A DNA stretch of 39,991 bases from a virus: IMG/VR virus record IMGVR_UViG_3300020401_000033, positions 1-39,991 of that record; one strand, written 5' to 3'. The position numbers were made by a program, and so were the translations under genes. The notes beneath the pieces were generated by a model that was not told where the DNA came from, ran no database searches, and saw only the letters and a program-made list of their open reading frames with translations. Below, piece after piece: positions 13,406 to 23,096 of the stretch. The stretch's first letter is position 1, and each line of letters opens with the position of its first letter.

Positions 13406-16400
13406 ATGGCAAATCTTCAGAGAAATTTTATTAAAGGAAGAATGAACAAGAGCCTTGATGAAAGGCTTCTTCCTAATGGTGAATATATAGATGCTCTAAA
13501 TGTAAGGCTTGGCTCAACAGAAGATACTGAAATCGGTTCTGTAGAAAATTCTAAAGGTAATTCAGTATTAACACAACTGGCTTTTTCTGGGGTAGACACC
13601 AGTTTAGCCGCTAGATGTATTGGTGCTTTTGAAGATGGAGCGAACCAAAGAATATATTGGTTTGTTCACGACCCTGCTTTTCCATTGGGAGTTCCTCAAA
13701 AGCTAGATTTAATAGTATCCTATAATGTTCATACCAGTAATTTAACTTATCATGTTATTAGTATTAATGACGGAAGCGATAGTGCTACAACTTTAAATTT
13801 TAATTCTAACAACTTAATTACAGGGATAAATTTAGTTGAGAACTTGTTGTTTTTTACGGATAATTTAAATCCTCCTAGGTTTATAAATATAAATCAAAAT
13901 TACGATGTTCCTGTAAACAACATAGACCAAATATCCGCAGAAGAATTATTGGTTATTAAAAGACCACCCGTTGAAGCTCCTAGTATTAGACTTCTTAACG
14001 TACCTGGACAACAAGACAATTTTTTAGAAGAGAGGTTTATTACTTTTGCATATAGGTATAGATATGTTAATGGAGAATATTCTGCAACCTCTCAATTTAG
14101 CCAATATGCTTTTGACCCTGGAACTTTTAATTTTAGCTTTAATAGCTTTTTAAACGAGGGAATGAAAAACAGCAAAAACGCTGTGGTAATAACATTTAAT
14201 GCTGGAGGGCCTTTAGTAAAAGATATACAGTTGCTTTTTAAAGAATCTACTACCTCTGCTATAAAAGTAATAGAAACATTTAATAAAAGTAATTTAGGAT
14301 ATGCTGACTTTAATAATTATACTTTTACTTTTGATGACAGCAAAATATTTACTCTTTTACCTGAATCTGAAATATTAAGACTCTATGATAATGTGCCAAA
14401 AGTGGCACAATCTCAAACCGTTATGGGTAATAGACTTATGTACGGTAATTACAAAGATGGATATGATTTAAAAGACAAGTATAACGACCCTTTAAAACTA
14501 GAGTTTATAGCATCTTTAAGCTCAGATGTAATAGATGTAGAAACATTACAATCTACTGTTGGCCCTTATTCTTATAGTATTGATGGAACTGTTGTGGTAA
14601 ACAACCCCGTTGTTTTTTTGGATTTTTCTAATGTCACTCTTAAAAAGGGAGCGGTTATAAGTTTAGATTTCAGAGTTGAGCATGAGTCTTTTTCAGGAAA
14701 TACTCCTGGAGCAACTACAACCTCTACTGATTTAATATTTGAATACACTCTGCCTACTGACTTTGCTAATGTATATTCTTTAGCGACCAGCACAGATTTT
14801 ATTGAAAAAATAGGGACTTCGACAAACATACAAACTGTAGGCAATGCTTGTAATGGAACAACATTAACAGACCAATTGAATTGTGCTCTACCATCTACTT
14901 TGGGAACATACACAAAGACTGCAAGTGGTATTACAGCAGATGGGCAGCCAATTAGTATAGTTTCTACTCCTGGAAGCAACACTATTGGACTTGTTATGAT
15001 AGCAATGAAATACGTTGATAGTTCTAATACCGCATATGAATATTACAACATTAATTTTAGCTCGGCTGAATATCAAGGCACTAGCAATACTTTAAGCCTT
15101 CATAGCAACAGAGGTTATGAAATGGGAATAGTATATATGGATGAATTCGGCAGGTCATCTACCGCATTAGTAAGCCCAAGCAATACTGTCCAAATTCCAT
15201 GTGCTAATTCTGTAAACAAAAATAAAATACAAGTAACTATACCAGTTCAGCAGTTAGCTCCAAACTGGGCTACAAGGTATAAGTTTGTAATAAAACCTTC
15301 TGAAGATACATATGATACTATTTATTCTAACATATACTACCAACAGCCAGGGACTAATTTTATATGGTTTTTATTAGAAGGAGAAAGCGCCAATAAAGTT
15401 CAAGAAGGAGATAGGCTTATAGTAAAATCAGATAGTCAAGGCCCAGTATTAAGATGTGTAGAAACCGCTGTTTTAGAAAAAACCCCACAAACCTCGGATT
15501 TTTTGCCTGATTTAGTAGATGATTCAGGAAATGAAGTTAAAGCTATAGCGGGAACTTACATGAGGTTGAATCCTAGTAATTTTTCTACAGTTAAAAATGA
15601 CAACTCAATTGTAGCTCCTGGCACAGAATATGTCAGAACAAATACAGCTGGCGCTTACCCTCTTATGGCTTATCCTATGAACGTAGAAGACCCAGCCAAC
15701 CCAGGGCAATATCTTGACTATGATGTGCCAGCTGGAACTAGGATTACAATGAACATACGACAAGAGAGGTTAGGCCCAGGAAGTGGTAATGGCGCGTGTG
15801 AAAGAAGAATAAATCAAATAGATGTAGATTTAGTAGCCTCTGCTGATTATAACAATATGTCAGATTGGTTTTATGGCGACAACATAGCTTTAGTTTTTAA
15901 TAATGCTACTACAGAAGTAGGAGCAAATGGAGCCCCCATAGTGAATAGCGTTGAGGCTTACTTAGCTCAAGCTTCTGCCCCAGATTTAACTTCTCCTAGT
16001 ACAGATATAAGCACTTCTTTAAACACAAATTATTATAGGTTTTATAGAGATACAACTTCAAATAGACTATACCTTTTAATTACAGGAACACAGAGGTGTG
16101 GAGGAGTAGCTTCACGAGATAAAAGAAGGTCTAGTATAACGGCAGAAATACAAGTTTACAGAGCTGAATCTGTTGTTACTTTTGAAACAATACCACAAGA
16201 TGCTTCTCCAAATATTTGGTACGAAAACCATTTATCTTTTGCAATAGACGAAAACGGACATCACCAAGGAAATATTCAAAACCAAACTGATAGTGTTTCT
16301 GCAATAGTAGATACGGAGTTTGCAAACGTTTATGCTTTTGGAAATGGCGTTGAAAGTTATAAAATTTTAGACTCTATTGTAGGAAAGACTTTAAACTACG

Positions 16401-18637
16401 GAGAAAGAGTAACTTCTACATCTACTCAAGAATATAAAGAAGCTCACAGGTTTGCTGATATTACATATAGTGGTGTTTTTAATGATGAAACTAATGTAAA
16501 TAAACTAAACGAATTTAATTTAGGACTATCTAATTTTAAAAGTTTAGAAGAAATTTTTGGTTCTATTCAAAAGCTACACTCTAGAAAGTCAGACGTTTTA
16601 GTTTTACAAGAAGATAAAATATCTTATGTATTAGCTGGTAAAAACTTACTTAGTGACGCTTCAGGAGGTGGCGCTTTAACATCTGTCCCCGAAGTTTTGG
16701 GAACTCAAATAACCCGAATAGAAGAATATGGCATAAGCAAAAATCCTGAAAGTTTTGCTACGTGGGGTAAAAATAAATACTTTACTGATGCTAAAAGAGG
16801 AGTTGTAATAAACCTGATGGGCTCTAGCGCTCAAAACGAACAGCTAGAAATTGTATCTCAGTATGGAATGAGAGGATGGTTTAGAGATTTATTTATAGAG
16901 GCTTTTGATACAGAAAAGTTGGGCGGTTATGACCCATATATGAATGAATATGTTTTAGCAACAAGTTTATCAACAGGCACATTATTAGCTGAATGTGTAA
17001 ATTGTGGTATTAATAAGTTTATTACTCTTGAGCCAGGTGTAGCTTTTAACTATTGTGTAGACCTTACTGAGTTTTTAGGTCAAACAGAAATAAGATATAC
17101 AATACCATTTGAAGGAGATGATGACATACTTACTGAATCAAGTGACCTTTTGTTGACCGAACTAAATTCAAACCAGCAGACTAGCGAAGTGCCCTTAAGT
17201 GGAACAGGATATGTTATTACAGCTGTTTATAATGGAGCAACTTACTCAACTGGAACAGTATATACAAGTGGTGTTTTAACTTTTAATAAAAACTCAGTAG
17301 CTGAAACTACAGTAGATATTACTGTTACTACAGACTCTTTAACATCTGATACTATTCAAGTAGATGTTGAATGCCCACAATCTGAAATTATAAACATTTA
17401 CAATGTATGTGTAACTAGCAATGCTGATGCCGAACAGTATATAACAAATGAATACAGGTGGAGCTCGGGAAGCTATAATTCTCCTTTGCATTCTGAAAGA
17501 GTAGAGTTTTCTACAAGCACTATTAACCCTGTAGTTTCTCAGTATAGCGTAATTACAGGAAAAGAAGGAGGGGGAGTTATACCAGGGGCTAATGCCACCG
17601 TATCTATTATAAGTAGAAAAGAAGGGTTTGATAATTTTAATTTTAATGCAAACACAAATAAATTAAAGTATTTAAGAACAGACACTGTTTATCAAAATAA
17701 CGGAACTTCAATTGACTCCTTATTATTGAATGCCAGTAATGCTACCCCGATTATTTCTCAATCTAATCCTGAACAGTTTTATGCAGAGTTTACTATGCCC
17801 ACTTCAGGACAGAATTTATATTTAATTTGGGACTATAGAAGCTCTTCTTCAGCTATTAGCTTATGTTATTCAAACACAAGCTTATCAGATGCTTGTACAG
17901 GATGTACTCCAATACCAACTCCTACTCCAGTAGCACCAACACCCAGTCCAACTTTTTATGCTTGGCCTATAGAAAGCTTCGGTTCAATTACAAGCCCTCC
18001 TTCGTGTCCTTTAACAGACACTTATGTATATGCTGCTGTTTCAAGTTATTCAGATGTTTATGCTAATAGCACTGTATTTTATTCTGACCAATTACTTCAA
18101 GTTCCTTTCCAGGGTAATGATAAATACTTTGGTGTAAGAGCAGCTAATAGTGGGTCAGGATTATCGTCAGGAATATTTAAAATGACTAATCAAGGAACAG
18201 TTTCTAATATTGACTTATCAGGGGTTTGTAATACCGCTCCAACTCCTGCTGGTACAGAAGTGTGGGATTTGCAATTATGTAGTGGAGCTCCAGGAAACTT
18301 ACAAGTTTATGATGATGGTCTTTTAGATAGCGGTATGGTAATAGGATACAATGGAAATTGTTATACTGTTTTAAATAAAACAACAAGCATATCTGGACAA
18401 CCTTTTAGTATATACACAGAATATGCGGATTGTACTGAATGTACACCTGGAGTATATTATTATGAATTAAGACATTGTACAACGGGCAGTTTGACTGATG
18501 TAGAAATTACTCAGTCTTTAAATATAGGACAAGCTTTGGTTTGGAATAACCAATGCTGGGCAGTTAATGCAATTGCAAGTGGAGGAGCGCAAATAGTTCC
18601 TACAAGTTTTCACGCTAATTGTAATACATGCCCATAA
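13406..18637 (+). CDS. Giant tail 'muzzle/stabilisation' protein with C-terminal adhesin-like modules
   Basis: 1743 aa. The N-terminus LQRNFIKGRMNKSLDERLLPNGEYIDALNVRLG is typical of crAss-like 'stabilisation/muzzle' proteins that form the distal tail assembly with beta-propeller-like regions. The core ends near residue 1500 with LYLIWDYRSSSSAISLCYS. After this come extra modules: a Pro/Thr linker (PIPTPTPVAPTPSP, ~1510-1525), an ~65-residue beta module, APTPAG, a Cys module (~1620-1680: LCSG, YDDGLLDSGMVI, CYTV, DCTEC) and a degenerate second Cys module to the end (HCTTG, CWAV, CNTC). The same modules recur in the next gene. The tail end is therefore probably exposed and receptor-facing. Core identity is good; module function is inferred. 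Confidence 0.8.
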   Translation: MANLQRNFIKGRMNKSLDERLLPNGEYIDALNVRLGSTEDTEIGSVENSKGNSVLTQLAFSGVDTSLAARCIGAFEDGANQRIYWFVHDPAFPLGVPQKLDLIVSYNVHTSNLTYHVISINDGSDSATTLNFNSNNLITGINLVENLLFFTDNLNPPRFININQNYDVPVNNIDQISAEELLVIKRPPVEAPSIRLLNVPGQQDNFLEERFITFAYRYRYVNGEYSATSQFSQYAFDPGTFNFSFNSFLNEGMKNSKNAVVITFNAGGPLVKDIQLLFKESTTSAIKVIETFNKSNLGYADFNNYTFTFDDSKIFTLLPESEILRLYDNVPKVAQSQTVMGNRLMYGNYKDGYDLKDKYNDPLKLEFIASLSSDVIDVETLQSTVGPYSYSIDGTVVVNNPVVFLDFSNVTLKKGAVISLDFRVEHESFSGNTPGATTTSTDLIFEYTLPTDFANVYSLATSTDFIEKIGTSTNIQTVGNACNGTTLTDQLNCALPSTLGTYTKTASGITADGQPISIVSTPGSNTIGLVMIAMKYVDSSNTAYEYYNINFSSAEYQGTSNTLSLHSNRGYEMGIVYMDEFGRSSTALVSPSNTVQIPCANSVNKNKIQVTIPVQQLAPNWATRYKFVIKPSEDTYDTIYSNIYYQQPGTNFIWFLLEGESANKVQEGDRLIVKSDSQGPVLRCVETAVLEKTPQTSDFLPDLVDDSGNEVKAIAGTYMRLNPSNFSTVKNDNSIVAPGTEYVRTNTAGAYPLMAYPMNVEDPANPGQYLDYDVPAGTRITMNIRQERLGPGSGNGACERRINQIDVDLVASADYNNMSDWFYGDNIALVFNNATTEVGANGAPIVNSVEAYLAQASAPDLTSPSTDISTSLNTNYYRFYRDTTSNRLYLLITGTQRCGGVASRDKRRSSITAEIQVYRAESVVTFETIPQDASPNIWYENHLSFAIDENGHHQGNIQNQTDSVSAIVDTEFANVYAFGNGVESYKILDSIVGKTLNYGERVTSTSTQEYKEAHRFADITYSGVFNDETNVNKLNEFNLGLSNFKSLEEIFGSIQKLHSRKSDVLVLQEDKISYVLAGKNLLSDASGGGALTSVPEVLGTQITRIEEYGISKNPESFATWGKNKYFTDAKRGVVINLMGSSAQNEQLEIVSQYGMRGWFRDLFIEAFDTEKLGGYDPYMNEYVLATSLSTGTLLAECVNCGINKFITLEPGVAFNYCVDLTEFLGQTEIRYTIPFEGDDDILTESSDLLLTELNSNQQTSEVPLSGTGYVITAVYNGATYSTGTVYTSGVLTFNKNSVAETTVDITVTTDSLTSDTIQVDVECPQSEIINIYNVCVTSNADAEQYITNEYRWSSGSYNSPLHSERVEFSTSTINPVVSQYSVITGKEGGGVIPGANATVSIISRKEGFDNFNFNANTNKLKYLRTDTVYQNNGTSIDSLLLNASNATPIISQSNPEQFYAEFTMPTSGQNLYLIWDYRSSSSAISLCYSNTSLSDACTGCTPIPTPTPVAPTPSPTFYAWPIESFGSITSPPSCPLTDTYVYAAVSSYSDVYANSTVFYSDQLLQVPFQGNDKYFGVRAANSGSGLSSGIFKMTNQGTVSNIDLSGVCNTAPTPAGTEVWDLQLCSGAPGNLQVYDDGLLDSGMVIGYNGNCYTVLNKTTSISGQPFSIYTEYADCTECTPGVYYYELRHCTTGSLTDVEITQSLNIGQALVWNNQCWAVNAIASGGAQIVPTSFHANCNTCP

Positions 18638-18649
18638 AATAATAAAGAA

Positions 18650-19249
18650 ATGGCAACAACAGGAACATATTATTTTGATGCAGCAAGTTTTGCTAACGCA
18701 ACAGTTGTGTACACCGACCAAGATTTAACTAACATAGCACCTAACGGGTGGTATTCAGACCAAACTATTGTTAGAGAACAAATTTCTGGTGTTTTATTTG
18801 CAGCACAATCTTGTGCGGCTCCAACTCCCACACCCACACCAGTGCCTGCTGCGCCTACGCCTACGCCTACGCCTACGCCTACGCCTACTCCGCCTACGCC
18901 CCCTACTCCGCCTACACCTACAGCGCCTACACCAGTGCCTGCTGCGCCTACGCCCGTGCCTACAGCTCCAACACCAACGCCTACAGCACCTTCTCCTGTG
19001 CCTGTGCCTGTGCCTGTGCCTGTACCTACAACTCCAACACCTGTGCCTTCAGCAGCTGGTTCATATGATTTATTTTACTGTACTGGAGGGGGAGCAAATT
19101 TAAGAGTGGTAGATGATGGAAACCTTAATCCAGGTATGGTAATTAAATACGCAGGAGTTTGCTATACGGTATATAACTATACATCCTACACTGGCAACTT
19201 TAGCTCTTATGATGAGTTTGATGATTGCGCTGAATGTTTAGCTAGTTAA
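18650..19249 (+). CDS. Pro/Thr-rich adhesin-like tail protein
   Basis: 199 aa in three parts. Residues 1-55 (TYYFDAASFANATVVYTDQ) resemble the beta module at ~1545-1610 of the muzzle protein. Residues 57-133 are a linker in which about half the residues are proline, mostly TP, VP and AP. Residues 138-199 are a Cys module (YCTGGG, VVDDGNLNPGMVIKY, CYTVYN, DCAEC) like the muzzle C-terminus. It starts 12 bases after the muzzle stop and so is probably a separable tail-tip or fibre subunit. The linker should form an extended polyproline rod and is a natural substrate for the 2OG dioxygenase and glycosyltransferase encoded next. The linker DNA is GC-rich against an AT-rich background. There is no signal peptide. 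Function is inferred from architecture and neighbours. Confidence 0.75.
   Translation: MATTGTYYFDAASFANATVVYTDQDLTNIAPNGWYSDQTIVREQISGVLFAAQSCAAPTPTPTPVPAAPTPTPTPTPTPTPPTPPTPPTPTAPTPVPAAPTPVPTAPTPTPTAPSPVPVPVPVPVPTTPTPVPSAAGSYDLFYCTGGGANLRVVDDGNLNPGMVIKYAGVCYTVYNYTSYTGNFSSYDEFDDCAECLAS
18853..18888 (+). repeat. Six tandem GCCTAC hexamers in the Pro-rich linker
   Basis: Six exact GCCTAC units encode the (PT)n stretch. The unit is two codons, so slippage changes linker length without breaking the frame. Related imperfect copies continue to ~18930. Confidence 0.95.
18995..19024 (+). repeat. Five tandem CCTGTG-type hexamers in the Pro-rich linker
   Basis: Four exact CCTGTG units and one CCTGTA encode a (PV)n stretch in frame, a second likely slippage tract in the same linker. 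Confidence 0.93.
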
Positions 19250-19261
19250 TTCAAATATATA

Positions 19262-19269
19262 TATCTTTA
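19262..19269 (+). promoter_or_regulatory. Near-consensus -7 box TATCTTTA before the dioxygenase gene
   Basis: TATCTTTA differs from TAnnTTTG only at the last base and lies 15 bases before ATG 19285, the same spacing as at 11506 and close to that at 21309. It sits in the 35-base gap after the Pro-rich gene. Confidence 0.45.
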
Positions 19270-19284
19270 CAAAAATTTAATTTA

Positions 19285-20454
19285 ATGAAAGAAACTCTAA
19301 ACTTTTTAACAAAAGAGGAGTGTGATTATTTTATTGATATGATTGATAAAAATCATTCACCATCTTCTGTAGTAGAAGGAGGAGAACAATTAAGCACAAT
19401 ATCCGACACTCGAACTTCTAGCACTTGCAATCTCAACCACAAAGACCCAAAGGTACAATCGCTCCATAAAAAAATTGCTGATTTTTTAGGAATTGAATTA
19501 TCTAAAGGAGAGCATCTACAAGGTCAACTTTACGAAGAGGGTCAGTACTTCAAGCCGCACCAAGATTTTTTTTCAGGCCCAGCAATAGAAAAACATTGTT
19601 TACATTCTGGAAACCGAACTGATACCCTGATGATATATTTAAACGATGACTTTGAAGGAGGAGGTACAAACTTTGTCAATTTAAACAGAATAGTTACACC
19701 ACAAAAAGGAATGGCCTTGAGTTGGAAAAACATGGTTGAAGGTCTCGTACAAAATGATTCAATGCATGAAGGTATGCCTATAAAAAAAGGAAAAAAATAT
19801 ATTATTACTTCGTGGTGGCGAGAAAATTCATGGGACAATGTGCGTGACCAAAATCTTTTTTTTAACAAACCAAAAGAATATAATAATGTAGATGACTTGC
19901 CAAAACTAACTCCAAATGGCTATAAAGTAGTAAAATGCCCCCCTGCTACTTGGGCATTAATTCAAGACGCTTACACTTTGCTAAAAGAAAAATCTCAGCC
20001 AGAAGAATTTCAAGGTAAAGAACAGTTTATCCCAACAGGAGATACAGAGCTTTTTTCTTTCGACCATCTCCCATACATAAGGTCTTTAATACACACCCAG
20101 CTTCAGCCAATACACGAAGATTTTGCACGACAAAAAATCACTCCTTCTTTTATATATGGTATTAGGTCATACAAAAAAGGCTCAACTTTAGCTACACATA
20201 CCGACAGAATAGCAACACATCATGTATCTTCAATCATAATTGTTGATAAAGATTTAAAGTGCGGTTGTCAACATAAAGATTTTGGTGATGATTGGGCGTT
20301 AGATATACAAGACCATAATGGAGACTGGCGTAAGGTTTATGCCAATCCTGGAGAAATGATATTGTATGAGTCGGCTAGATGTGCACACGGAAGGGTTGAC
20401 GCTTTTCAGGGGACATATTTTAGAAACTTTTATGTCCACTATCAGCTTGCATGA
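19285..20454 (+). CDS. Tandem 2-oxoglutarate/Fe(II) dioxygenase, prolyl-4-hydroxylase-like
   Basis: 389 aa with two oxygenase domains, each with an apparently intact iron triad. Domain 1 (about 1-180) follows the P4H pattern: GQLYEEGQYFKPHQD gives His92 and Asp94, TLMIYLNDDFEGGGTNF is the following strand block, SMHEGMPIKKGKKYIITSWW gives His161 and Lys171, the latter ten residues on as for the 2OG-binding Lys of P4H. Domain 2 (about 285-389) has LATHTD (His305, Asp307), CAHGR (His368) and Arg380 as a candidate 2OG ligand. P4H enzymes hydroxylate proline or other residues using O2, 2OG and Fe(II). The upstream neighbour is a PTP/PVP-rich tail protein and the downstream gene is a glycosyltransferase joined by a 4-base overlap. 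The substrate is inferred; a nucleic acid or small-molecule substrate is possible. Confidence 0.82.
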   Translation: MKETLNFLTKEECDYFIDMIDKNHSPSSVVEGGEQLSTISDTRTSSTCNLNHKDPKVQSLHKKIADFLGIELSKGEHLQGQLYEEGQYFKPHQDFFSGPAIEKHCLHSGNRTDTLMIYLNDDFEGGGTNFVNLNRIVTPQKGMALSWKNMVEGLVQNDSMHEGMPIKKGKKYIITSWWRENSWDNVRDQNLFFNKPKEYNNVDDLPKLTPNGYKVVKCPPATWALIQDAYTLLKEKSQPEEFQGKEQFIPTGDTELFSFDHLPYIRSLIHTQLQPIHEDFARQKITPSFIYGIRSYKKGSTLATHTDRIATHHVSSIIIVDKDLKCGCQHKDFGDDWALDIQDHNGDWRKVYANPGEMILYESARCAHGRVDAFQGTYFRNFYVHYQLA

Positions 20455-21296
20455 TTACTATTCCTGTAGCGGTAGCTATTCCGTTTTTTGAAAAACAAAT
20501 ATCTTTTTTTCAATATCAACACAAAGAGGTTTATGGTCAAGACGCTTTTAATAAAGCGTACATTCCTATAGTAAGGTATAATCATTTTAATGAAGCCTCT
20601 AAGTTTGATGTAGAGTGGAATATGTCGTTGCCATACAAAATGGTAAACTCTGTTTATGATTACATAAAAAGCGACAAACAGTGGCATATTCCCATAAACG
20701 TATTTATTGCGGCCAAACAATTGCTTTATTTGTTTCAAGATGAAGATGTAATAGAAATAATTGATTCCGACTTAGTCCACTTAAAACCTTATCCTAAAAT
20801 TTACGACCACTTAGATTATGATGTAGTTTTAGTAGACGCAACATATGAGAAGTGGCATATGCATATTTCAAAACCTGACTCTTTAAACAGAAAAGTTATA
20901 AAAGAATATTTAACTCATAATGAAGAGGGGTATATTAACGGGGGATTTAATGTTATAGCTAGAGTTAAAACTATAAAAAAAATTATAGATGATATAATTA
21001 TTTATTCATGTAATGTAACAGAAAAAGAAAAAGGAAATCAACACTCTTGGTGGTGTGCAATGTATGGGTTAAATATAGCCTGTCACAATCACAAATTAAA
21101 AATGATAGATATAAAAAACTGTTATTATCCTGGAGTTAATAATTTAGAAGAAAATCATTACATAGCTCATTATAGTTGTGACCCTCTTTTTGATAAACAC
21201 AAAATGCATAAATTAGACCCTTCAACATTTCCAAATAATTCTTTTTATAACCAAGCTAAAAAATGGTTGGCCCAAACATCAAAAAAAAAGATATAA
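20451..21296 (+). CDS. GT-A-like glycosyltransferase
   Basis: 281 aa, starting at ATG in an ATGA overlap with the dioxygenase stop. The N-terminus is a Rossmann-type strand (ITIPVAVAIPFFEKQ). DEDVIEIIDSDLVHLKPYPKI carries the DSD motif at 105-107, the metal/nucleotide-sugar motif of GT-A enzymes, followed by a hydrophobic strand. EGYINGGFNVIARVKTIKKI (159-178) resembles the NxGf segment after the DxD in GT8-like families, and IAHYSCDP (238-245) may supply the late metal-binding His. No membrane anchor is seen, so it should act in the cytoplasm on phage proteins or small molecules. Coupling to a P4H-like enzyme suggests a hydroxylated acceptor. The sugar donor and acceptor cannot be read from the sequence. 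Confidence 0.65.
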   Translation: MITIPVAVAIPFFEKQISFFQYQHKEVYGQDAFNKAYIPIVRYNHFNEASKFDVEWNMSLPYKMVNSVYDYIKSDKQWHIPINVFIAAKQLLYLFQDEDVIEIIDSDLVHLKPYPKIYDHLDYDVVLVDATYEKWHMHISKPDSLNRKVIKEYLTHNEEGYINGGFNVIARVKTIKKIIDDIIIYSCNVTEKEKGNQHSWWCAMYGLNIACHNHKLKMIDIKNCYYPGVNNLEENHYIAHYSCDPLFDKHKMHKLDPSTFPNNSFYNQAKKWLAQTSKKKI

Positions 21297-21332: not shown

Positions 21333-23096
21333 ATGAACGGCTGGAAATTTACGGCAGGAGCAGCAAGTATTGTAGGCGTTCCAGCTGTAGGATATAATAA
21401 GGGAGCTTTAACAGATTGCCCAAGCTCTGCAAGTATGGGGAGTGGGTTTACTCCAACAACTCTTACAACAAATTTACCAGGGTTTGGATGTTATAATTCT
21501 ATTTCAGGAGGAGGTGGAACAGCCTCTACTATTGGCTTTGCCTTAAATGGAAGCGGAACAGCTTCTAACCTATCATTAGCTAGGTTTTATTATACACCAT
21601 CTACAGGGATTACTACTGCAGCGTTCATGATTTCTTCATCCCAATCAAATCCAGGTACTGGAACGGTTGGCGGCACTATAACAGGAGATGACGGTTCTTC
21701 AGGAACCTGGAATGTAAATTATGTCAAACAAACATCTCCGTTTTTTGATGATAATGGTTTCGGTAGTTCTTACGAGCCTTTGTCTATAGGTACGGTAACA
21801 TTGAATGGGTTAACATTAACCAATGGAGTTACTTACGATTTAATAACTAGCGGCAGCCCTGCACCTGTTCCTGTTCCAACGCCAATTACTATTCCTGATT
21901 ATTGTTTTTCAGCTACTAACAATGTATCGTTTCAAAGTATACTTGGAGTTAACTCCTATGTTTTTAATAACAACTATGGCGTATATGGTTCTTCGACAGG
22001 AACTTTTGTTTTTAACTCAATACCCTCTACTCATCCGATTGCTTTTCAAAACAGCGGAAAAACAACTTTAATATCTTACACAGGGCAGTACAGCATTGGC
22101 ACAAAAACTGGATTAGACGGGAACACTTATGAATATTTTTATGGAGATGTAACTGTAAATGTAAGCGGGGATTTTGGCACAATAAGTTATGAGTGTTATT
22201 ATCATGGATATATGGGCGGACAAAACAATTATGTTTACAACGCTCAAACTTGTCCACCATTAGGGCCTCCCATAATACCACCAGTTGAAGACCCTAGCAA
22301 AAAATACACTTTGAGCTACAGCGATGGGGTAAAAGGATGGCCCTCTTTTTACTCTTACAATCCTGATATGATGATTGGAATGAATAATTATTTTTATTCT
22401 TTTAAAAGAGGCCAATTATATAGTCACAACACTAATTCAATACGAAACAATTATTATGGTGTTCAATATAATTCTCAGATGACATCAGTATTCAACGATA
22501 ATGCTTTAGAAAATAAAGTATTTAAAACAATAAATTTAGAAAGTGATACAGCTTGGTCAGCATCCTTATCTACTGATATACAAAGCGGAGGGACTATAGA
22601 CAGCACTTGGTTTGAAAAGAAAGAAGGAGCATGGTTTGCTTATGTGAGAGCAACGGGAGCGAGCCCAGCTGATGCTTCAGAGTATCCTATGCGTTCAGTA
22701 AACGGAATAGGAAAGTGCAGTTTTAACGCTGTAGATGGAACTAACACACAGATTGGGTTCAGCACCTCACCTCAAGTTGTCATTGGAGGAGATATTAGTA
22801 TAGGAGATATGGTATATTTTTCTTTACCTCCTTACACTACCCTTCAATTAGCGGGACAGCTTACTTCTATTAATGTAGATTTAAGCCAGGCTTTGAATAC
22901 TATCGTAATACAAAATAACATCACCAATGCAGTTGCTATTACTGCTCAAGACGCTTACATTGCATATATTAAAGACCAGCAAGCAGAATCTCACGGAATG
23001 CTGGGTCATTATTGTTTATTCACTCTTACCAATACAGAGACAACTGCCACTGAACTACTGGCTGTTGAGTCGGAAGCGATGAAAAGCTATCCTTAA
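21333..23096 (+). CDS. Tail protein with a cupredoxin-like domain
   Basis: 587 aa. Residues 1-170 are a Gly/Ser/Thr-rich beta domain. Residues 174-188 are a short Pro-rich linker (PAPVPVPTP). Residues ~190-302 look like a cupredoxin-type domain: FNSIPSTHPIAF gives His234 and ISYECYYHGYMGGQ gives Cys288, His291 and Met294, the His...Cys-x2-His-x2-Met order of type-1 copper sites such as amicyanin. A PPxxPP spacer follows. The C-terminal half (from ~325, YTLSYSDGVKGWPSFYSY and GQLYSHN) is a conserved block I associate with crAss-like and flavophage tail proteins. It is probably an exposed tail component. Copper binding is a prediction; the domain may be only structural. It has its own candidate promoter box. 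Confidence 0.7.
   Translation: MNGWKFTAGAASIVGVPAVGYNKGALTDCPSSASMGSGFTPTTLTTNLPGFGCYNSISGGGGTASTIGFALNGSGTASNLSLARFYYTPSTGITTAAFMISSSQSNPGTGTVGGTITGDDGSSGTWNVNYVKQTSPFFDDNGFGSSYEPLSIGTVTLNGLTLTNGVTYDLITSGSPAPVPVPTPITIPDYCFSATNNVSFQSILGVNSYVFNNNYGVYGSSTGTFVFNSIPSTHPIAFQNSGKTTLISYTGQYSIGTKTGLDGNTYEYFYGDVTVNVSGDFGTISYECYYHGYMGGQNNYVYNAQTCPPLGPPIIPPVEDPSKKYTLSYSDGVKGWPSFYSYNPDMMIGMNNYFYSFKRGQLYSHNTNSIRNNYYGVQYNSQMTSVFNDNALENKVFKTINLESDTAWSASLSTDIQSGGTIDSTWFEKKEGAWFAYVRATGASPADASEYPMRSVNGIGKCSFNAVDGTNTQIGFSTSPQVVIGGDISIGDMVYFSLPPYTTLQLAGQLTSINVDLSQALNTIVIQNNITNAVAITAQDAYIAYIKDQQAESHGMLGHYCLFTLTNTETTATELLAVESEAMKSYP

Follow-up and report, generated by a model that had tools for sequence, protein, structure and literature searches.

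Predicted hydroxyproline O-glycosylation of tail linkers in an aquatic crAss-like phage

The 39,991-base virus record analysed here (IMG/VR record IMGVR_UViG_3300020401_000033, in the following called the window) comes from an aquatic crAss-like phage, as judged by terminase phrog_6681, portal phrog_6547, the muzzle-like giant virion protein phrog_14478 and the crAss muzzle C-terminal domain PF25729. Within its virion genes a Pro-rich protein, a tandem 2-oxoglutarate (2OG)/Fe(II) oxygenase and a glycosyltransferase are encoded one after the other. Comparison with related loci suggests that the phage probably encodes a two-step hydroxyproline (Hyp) O-glycosylation of its own tail linkers. An earlier note on this DNA had predicted hydroxylation and subsequent glycosylation of these linkers, and this is largely supported by the prolyl 4-hydroxylase (P4H) type structure of the oxygenase, the co-occurrence of the genes, the homology of the glycosyltransferase to hydroxyproline O-arabinosyltransferases (HPATs), its replacement by GT60 enzymes in relatives, and the covariation of the linkers with the glycan gene behind the hydroxylase (here termed the slot).

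Late in infection, the tandem oxygenase would hydroxylate X-Pro units of extended Pro-rich linkers, which may be those of the 18650 protein, the tail end of the 13406 protein and the 21333 protein (named by their start positions, Table 1). The overlapping GT-A enzyme would then add a sugar to the new hydroxyl, and the receptor-binding domains could thereby be held apart by stiff spacers that carry a glycan coat. The benefit might be stiffening, shielding from protease or receptor, or altered binding. The slot glycosyltransferase is exchanged among phages, the linker composition would follow the preference of the enzyme, and phages may thereby differ in their tail glycan, comparable to bacterial serotypes.

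Hydroxylase and glycosyltransferase

The three consecutive open reading frames described in the earlier note (Pro-rich protein, double 2OG enzyme, DxD glycosyltransferase) were all found at their positions, with the ATG of the glycosyltransferase at 20451 overlapping the hydroxylase stop in a shared 'ATGA'. The HxD...H triads it had recognized in both oxygenase halves are present at H92/D94/H161 and H305/D307/H368. The Fe ligands of domain 1 and the 2OG contacts Y83, T114 and K171 are invariant among 32 relatives, and the Fe/2OG roles of the matching P4H residues have been described (PMC9676403). Regarding domain 2, H305 and H368 are invariant in these relatives and D307 is nearly so, with HxE in locus L067; a sequence search of the PDB returned no relative of this domain. 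For domain 1 the sequence matches in the PDB are P4Hs only (B. anthracis, Chlamydomonas, human and PBCV-1; E 4.5e-35 to 2e-6). Its AlphaFold2 model (predicted local distance difference test, pLDDT, 90) finds as top structural match the algal P4H in complex with (Ser-Pro)5 (3gze; Z 25.1, root-mean-square deviation 1.7, 181 residues), and the PBCV-1 enzyme (5c5t) reaches Z 21.2. By sequence and modelled fold, domain 1 is a true collagen/algal-type prolyl 4-hydroxylase of predicted activity.

This bears on the target of the enzymes. Base hydroxylation followed by base glycosylation is known in phages, and the pair might modify the phage DNA in a TET/JBP-like manner, an alternative the earlier note had proposed to check by structure. 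Such a DNA target is very improbable: domain 1 resembles collagen/algal-type P4Hs and not TET/JBP, on which ground a TET/JBP-like DNA hydroxylase is rejected, the genes sit among virion genes, and the slot holds families with protein acceptors (PF11397, PF10250, PF23452).

The DxD motif of the window glycosyltransferase (D105/D107) is invariant among 16 relatives. The enzyme has a predicted GT-A fold (model pLDDT 78) with GT8 enzymes ranking top (LgtC Z 10.5, glycogenin Z 9.9), which fits family GT95, as this is related to GT8 (PMC4908140). Pfam family PF23452 represents the plant HPATs of GT95 that transfer arabinose to Hyp (PMC4908140). Homologues of the window enzyme in L142 (51% identical) and L070 (38% identical, E 4.3e-8) score 30.7 and 33.3 bits with this profile (cut-off 23.9); the family members in L052 and L064 are also above the gathering score, and the closer homologue in L002 (86%) stays just under it with 20.4 bits. 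We therefore regard the window glycosyltransferase as homologous to HPATs, of which it would be a divergent relative, the link being made through the Pfam matches of its family members. A PDB search with the glycosyltransferase profile gave no match, and profile comparison of the family (A4) with three actinobacterial HPAT-like proteins gave a weak one (probability 3%, E 0.017). No PF11397 (GT60) match was obtained for the slot enzyme of the window itself, GT60 being confined to other relatives.

An exchangeable slot and the linkers around it

The hydroxylase is encoded in 33 IMG/VR loci (51-91% identity). Wherever flanking sequence is available, a muzzle-like protein is followed by a Pro-rich protein, the hydroxylase, the glycan gene(s) and a Pro-rich muzzle-C protein, the Pro-rich protein upstream of the hydroxylase being a separate gene or fused to the muzzle gene depending on the relative. 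Glycan genes occupy the slot wherever it is readable in a hydroxylase locus. The co-occurrence that the earlier note had asked for in related phages is thus observed: hydroxylase, Pro-rich virion proteins and glycan gene stand together at every locus in which all three positions are present.

The contents of the slot vary between the window-type enzyme, PF04488 (206 aa), radical SAM plus PF11397, O-fucosyltransferase (O-FucT) plus carbamoyltransferase, and combinations with epimerases, DegT aminotransferase and acetyltransferase. The families assigned by profile are PF23452, PF11397 (GT60; L033 E 4e-36), PF04488 and PF10250 (O-FucT). PF11397/GT60 comprises the Skp1-hydroxyproline N-acetylglucosamine (GlcNAc) transferase as well as polypeptide Ser/Thr GlcNAc-transferases (PMC6939170, PMC8724618). 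With PF23452 and PF11397, two families with known hydroxyproline glycosyltransferases share one slot. On the hydroxylase tree no fewer than 13 switches of the slot family are needed, which is near random.

Two side observations concern the neighbours of the slot enzyme. A radical SAM/SPASM protein lies immediately upstream of GT60 in many loci (e.g. L009 7170-8078, L033 7167-8075). Extra dehydratase/epimerase, DegT aminotransferase and acetyltransferase genes are found in L052 (5305-7143), L070 (5925-7763) and L142 (5817-7456), which suggests that unusual sugars are made by the phage.

The composition of the linkers follows the slot. Over 40 loci the residue before Pro tracks the slot family: GT60 loci have a T-P fraction of 0.68 and hardly any P-P, V-P or A-P, PF04488 loci show P-P 0.32 (PPT motif), O-FucT loci A-P 0.29 and V-P 0.18, and window-type loci are mixed. 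The slot family explains the linkers upstream of the hydroxylase gene with an R2 of 0.56 (permutation p 5e-5) and is likewise associated with the downstream linker (p 2.5e-4); with hydroxylase distance controlled, p is 3e-4 upstream and 0.002 downstream, all these values taking the loci as exchangeable after dereplication, with the PF04488 loci partly clustered on the tree, and coming from a test chosen after the pattern was already visible in the linker data. The pair L008 and L009 illustrates the coupling at short distance. Their hydroxylases are 94% identical and their slot enzymes differ (window type versus GT60); at most positions VAPTP-type linkers in L008 correspond to TPSP-type linkers in L009 with the flanking residues unchanged.

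This coupling might arise without any enzymatic link, if cassettes recombined together with the flanking repetitive linker DNA. In favour of such hitchhiking, the parts together span only about 10 kb, and the presence of the hydroxylase is clustered phylogenetically. The upstream linkers, however, follow the slot, and the hydroxylase lying between the two does not, its phylogeny barely tracking the slot, which makes simple hitchhiking unlikely; the linkers of L008 and L009 moreover differ between conserved flanking residues. We give this explanation a low probability.

A second alternative is that both enzymes target host molecules, such as a surface glycan or a host protein, and are merely located in the tail operon. 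Phage glycosyltransferases frequently alter the host serotype, and cyanophage 2OG oxygenases are usually taken as host-metabolism genes (PMC9602691). A host target would leave the covariation of linker composition and slot enzyme unexplained, as well as the lack of such linkers in relatives without P4H and without GT60. No membrane-type stretch was found in the window glycosyltransferase, the highest 19-residue Kyte-Doolittle value being 1.35, so that it does not belong to the membrane-embedded serotype-conversion (gtr) type. A host target therefore appears improbable.

Regarding the acceptor residue, the Pro fraction is constant in the linkers of hydroxylase-bearing phages (0.33-0.41), and Ser+Thr ranges from 0.09 to 0.46. 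Long PV/PA linkers poor in Ser/Thr occur in O-FucT and some window-type loci (Ser+Thr 0.09 in L131, 0.14 in L044). The constant Pro with variable Ser+Thr favours Hyp as the acceptor in the PV/PA-rich cases. In the GT60 loci prolines tend to follow Thr or Ser throughout, and Ser/Thr acceptors are possible there. One could go further and assume that the Ser and Thr residues of the linkers are glycosylated in a mucin-like manner, and that the hydroxylase separately stiffens the polyproline helix with Hyp staying sugar-free. GT60 indeed includes enzymes for Ser/Thr and for Hyp acceptors, the GT60 loci have T-P/S-P linkers, and hydroxylase-less phages combine GT60 with Thr-rich linkers. The existence of the long Ser/Thr-poor PV/PA linkers, at a Pro fraction held within the same limits, and the relationship of the window enzyme family to hydroxyproline arabinosyltransferases argue against this assumption, which we consider rather unlikely.

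Control loci and weight of the evidence

To avoid selection on the hydroxylase, control loci were chosen through two flanking genes, MUZ_C and acetyltransferase, and dereplication at 90% left 77 syntenic loci. Pro-rich linkers with 13-21 Pro per 30 residues are present in 21 out of 21 hydroxylase-bearing loci, and 45 out of 45 loci without hydroxylase and without GT60 lack such linkers (at most 8 Pro per 30 residues); as the control loci are best matches to hydroxylase-bearing queries, these frequencies are no population estimates. The remaining 11 out of 77 possess GT60 without hydroxylase and are intermediate, several with Thr/Pro linkers; L143 was put in this class on a GT60-like fragment and would otherwise be the sole Pro-rich locus without both. 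Near-complete hydroxylase-minus genomes have no tandem hydroxylase elsewhere, and several carry a different short 2OG protein.

Sister phages with a GT60 enzyme of about 405 aa in the slot (PF11397, E ~1e-74) and without hydroxylase are L141 (6340-7551), L149 (4043-5260), L147, L155, L176, L183 and L192. Several of them have Thr-rich PTAT linkers, and they may stand for a Ser/Thr counterpart of mucin type.

Several observations weigh against Hyp O-glycosylation of the linkers. The presence of the hydroxylase corresponds to about two changes on the MUZ_C tree, so that the association is largely that of one clade and not of 21 independent events, and the Fisher p of 7e-14 overstates independence; a sign test on independent pairs had too few changes to inform. 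GT60 without P4H also adjoins Thr-rich linkers (several PTAT), and loci with the second 2OG domain alone still have Pro-rich linkers. The window glycosyltransferase itself has no Pfam match at gathering thresholds. Phe89, invariant in the phage family, stands where the algal P4H has Tyr140, a contact to the target proline. This deviation lowers the certainty on the substrate but not on the fold. The Tyr is highly conserved among P4Hs and hence typical of the family, though not strictly defining. An amino-acid analysis of PBCV-1 virions, as referred to in PMC7019647 (ref 162), gave no hydroxyproline despite the P4H of this virus. Finally, the whole case is built on sequence comparison and predicted structure.

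The loci with the second 2OG domain only (equivalent to window residues 196-389) are L048 (4309-4908), L127, L131, L178 and L195. The L048-type protein is 32% identical to that part of the window enzyme, and these loci also contain O-FucT, carbamoyltransferase and another 2OG-like protein of 180 aa; their linkers are PV/PA-rich.

The closest parallels are found in eukaryotic pathways and in other viruses. The plant extensin pathway likewise couples a P4H with an HPAT (GT95) and thus resembles the P4H and PF23452-type enzyme near Pro-rich repeat proteins, but it is secretory, whereas the present enzymes are phage-encoded, soluble and part of a tail operon, with the window enzyme below the Pfam threshold. 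The Skp1 pathway of Dictyostelium and Toxoplasma is cytoplasmic, with a P4H followed by the GT60 GlcNAc-transferase Gnt1 acting on Hyp (PMC6939170), and several relatives hold PF11397 in the slot; there one defined Hyp of a regulatory protein is modified, in contrast to the repetitive virion linkers of the phage, and the window is without GT60. Among viruses, the PBCV-1 P4H (vCPH) was reported by Eriksson 1999 (cited in PMC7019647) to act on peptides of the virus. It is a viral P4H of the same fold, but stems from an algal virus and is not known to be coupled with a glycosyltransferase slot. We know of no hydroxylase step in the virion glycosylation of mycobacteriophages, which resembles the proposed system in that phage-encoded glycosyltransferases act on virion proteins and differs in its C-terminal sites. 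According to Freeman 2023 (cited in PMC12619734), the decorated proteins are capsid and tail tube. Synechococcus phage S-SCSM1 has 2OG oxygenases beside O-FucT, carbamoyltransferase and GDP-fucose genes, outside the tail operon however, and its authors read them as cell-wall and host-metabolism genes. The S-SCSM1 cluster (L201 6204-14302; L202 23462-31273) has the order 2OG, O-FucT, 2OG, carbamoyltransferase and GDP-fucose genes and includes a VrlC virion protein with a PQPRPQP-rich stretch.

A literature search with thin coverage of subscription journals found no description of Hyp glycosylation in a phage. In the Baltic viromes of PMC9301287, genes of P4H type rank with the most widespread auxiliary genes (P4HA in 62% of water stations), and their use was called cryptic there. 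The phage's own tail linkers are here proposed as a concrete substrate for a viral P4H. If true, phages and probably actinobacteria would join plants, algae and protists as carriers of hydroxyproline O-glycosylation, which would bear on how GT60 and HPAT enzymes evolved, and an exchangeable tail glycan coat could shape adsorption, stability or recognition. On balance we lean towards a modular system in which an exchangeable glycan cassette follows a fixed hydroxylase and provides a lineage-specific sugar coat, the linkers co-evolving as an acceptor code; this would be the first Hyp-linked glycosylation in a prokaryotic virus, with an actinobacterial cellular counterpart.

Gene features and other carriers

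Table 1. Positions of the genes and linkers discussed, in window coordinates.
Feature	Position	Strand	Remarks
Large muzzle-like virion protein	13406..18637	+	phrog_14478 E 1e-239; likely co-substrate
Pro-rich linker of the 13406 protein	17906-17950	+	precedes C-terminal repeat domains; longer linkers in relatives
Small virion-type protein (N-terminal domain, linker, C-terminal domain)	18650..19249	+	proposed main substrate; homologues at the same position in relatives
79-residue PT/PV/PPT linker of the 18650 protein	18818-19054	+	between two small domains
Tandem 2OG/Fe(II) oxygenase, 389 aa	19285..20454	+	PF13640 E 4.5e-15; domain 1 ~1-190, domain 2 ~196-389
GT-A glycosyltransferase with DxD, divergent PF23452/GT95 relative	20451..21296	+	putative first-sugar enzyme; from Pfam matches of family members and fold
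Protein with C-terminal crAss muzzle domain	21333..23096	+	PF25729 crAss_MUZ_C E 1.2e-18; likely co-substrate
Short Pro-rich linkers of the 21333 protein	21855-21902 and 22254-22295	+	long counterparts in relatives

The linker of the 18650 protein consists of 37 Pro, 22 Thr, 9 Val, 9 Ala and 2 Ser. Residues 1620-1679 of the 13406 protein, a repeat domain at its end, share 55% identity with the C-terminal domain of the 18650 protein.

By terminase, the closest annotated record is an uncultured 60.9-kb Manatee Spring phage (75% identity), followed by Flavobacterium and Cellulophaga phages. Isolated phages were considered as carriers and rejected, as no P4H match in the phage collection came from these named relatives (the Manatee Spring contig, Flavobacterium elemo and Cellulophaga phages), and the two of them that were inspected have no Pro-rich linkers. 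The P4H-like genes of Erwinia Y3 and Salmonella Sen-NF adjoin asparagine synthase among replication genes instead of Pro-rich virion genes; phage P4H-like genes are thus not always in this role. A further candidate, MT838812, seems to be a piece of cellular DNA.

When bacterial genomes were scanned, distant tandem hydroxylases (25-28%) turned up on contigs of metagenome-assembled genomes (MAGs) from Acidimicrobiia and other actinobacteria, a host assignment that is provisional as MAG contigs may be mis-binned. These contigs also carry PqqD-like proteins with Pro/Thr-rich tails and GT60, and a PF23452 protein above threshold is present in four out of four searched actinobacterial MAGs. The clusters (L208 2087-7678, L210 3897-6810, L211 1284-8648 and L212 892-5318) likely constitute a cellular peptide-glycosylation cluster. 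In L208 the tandem hydroxylase, PqqD-like Pro/Thr-rich proteins, PF23452 and GT60 adjoin one another.

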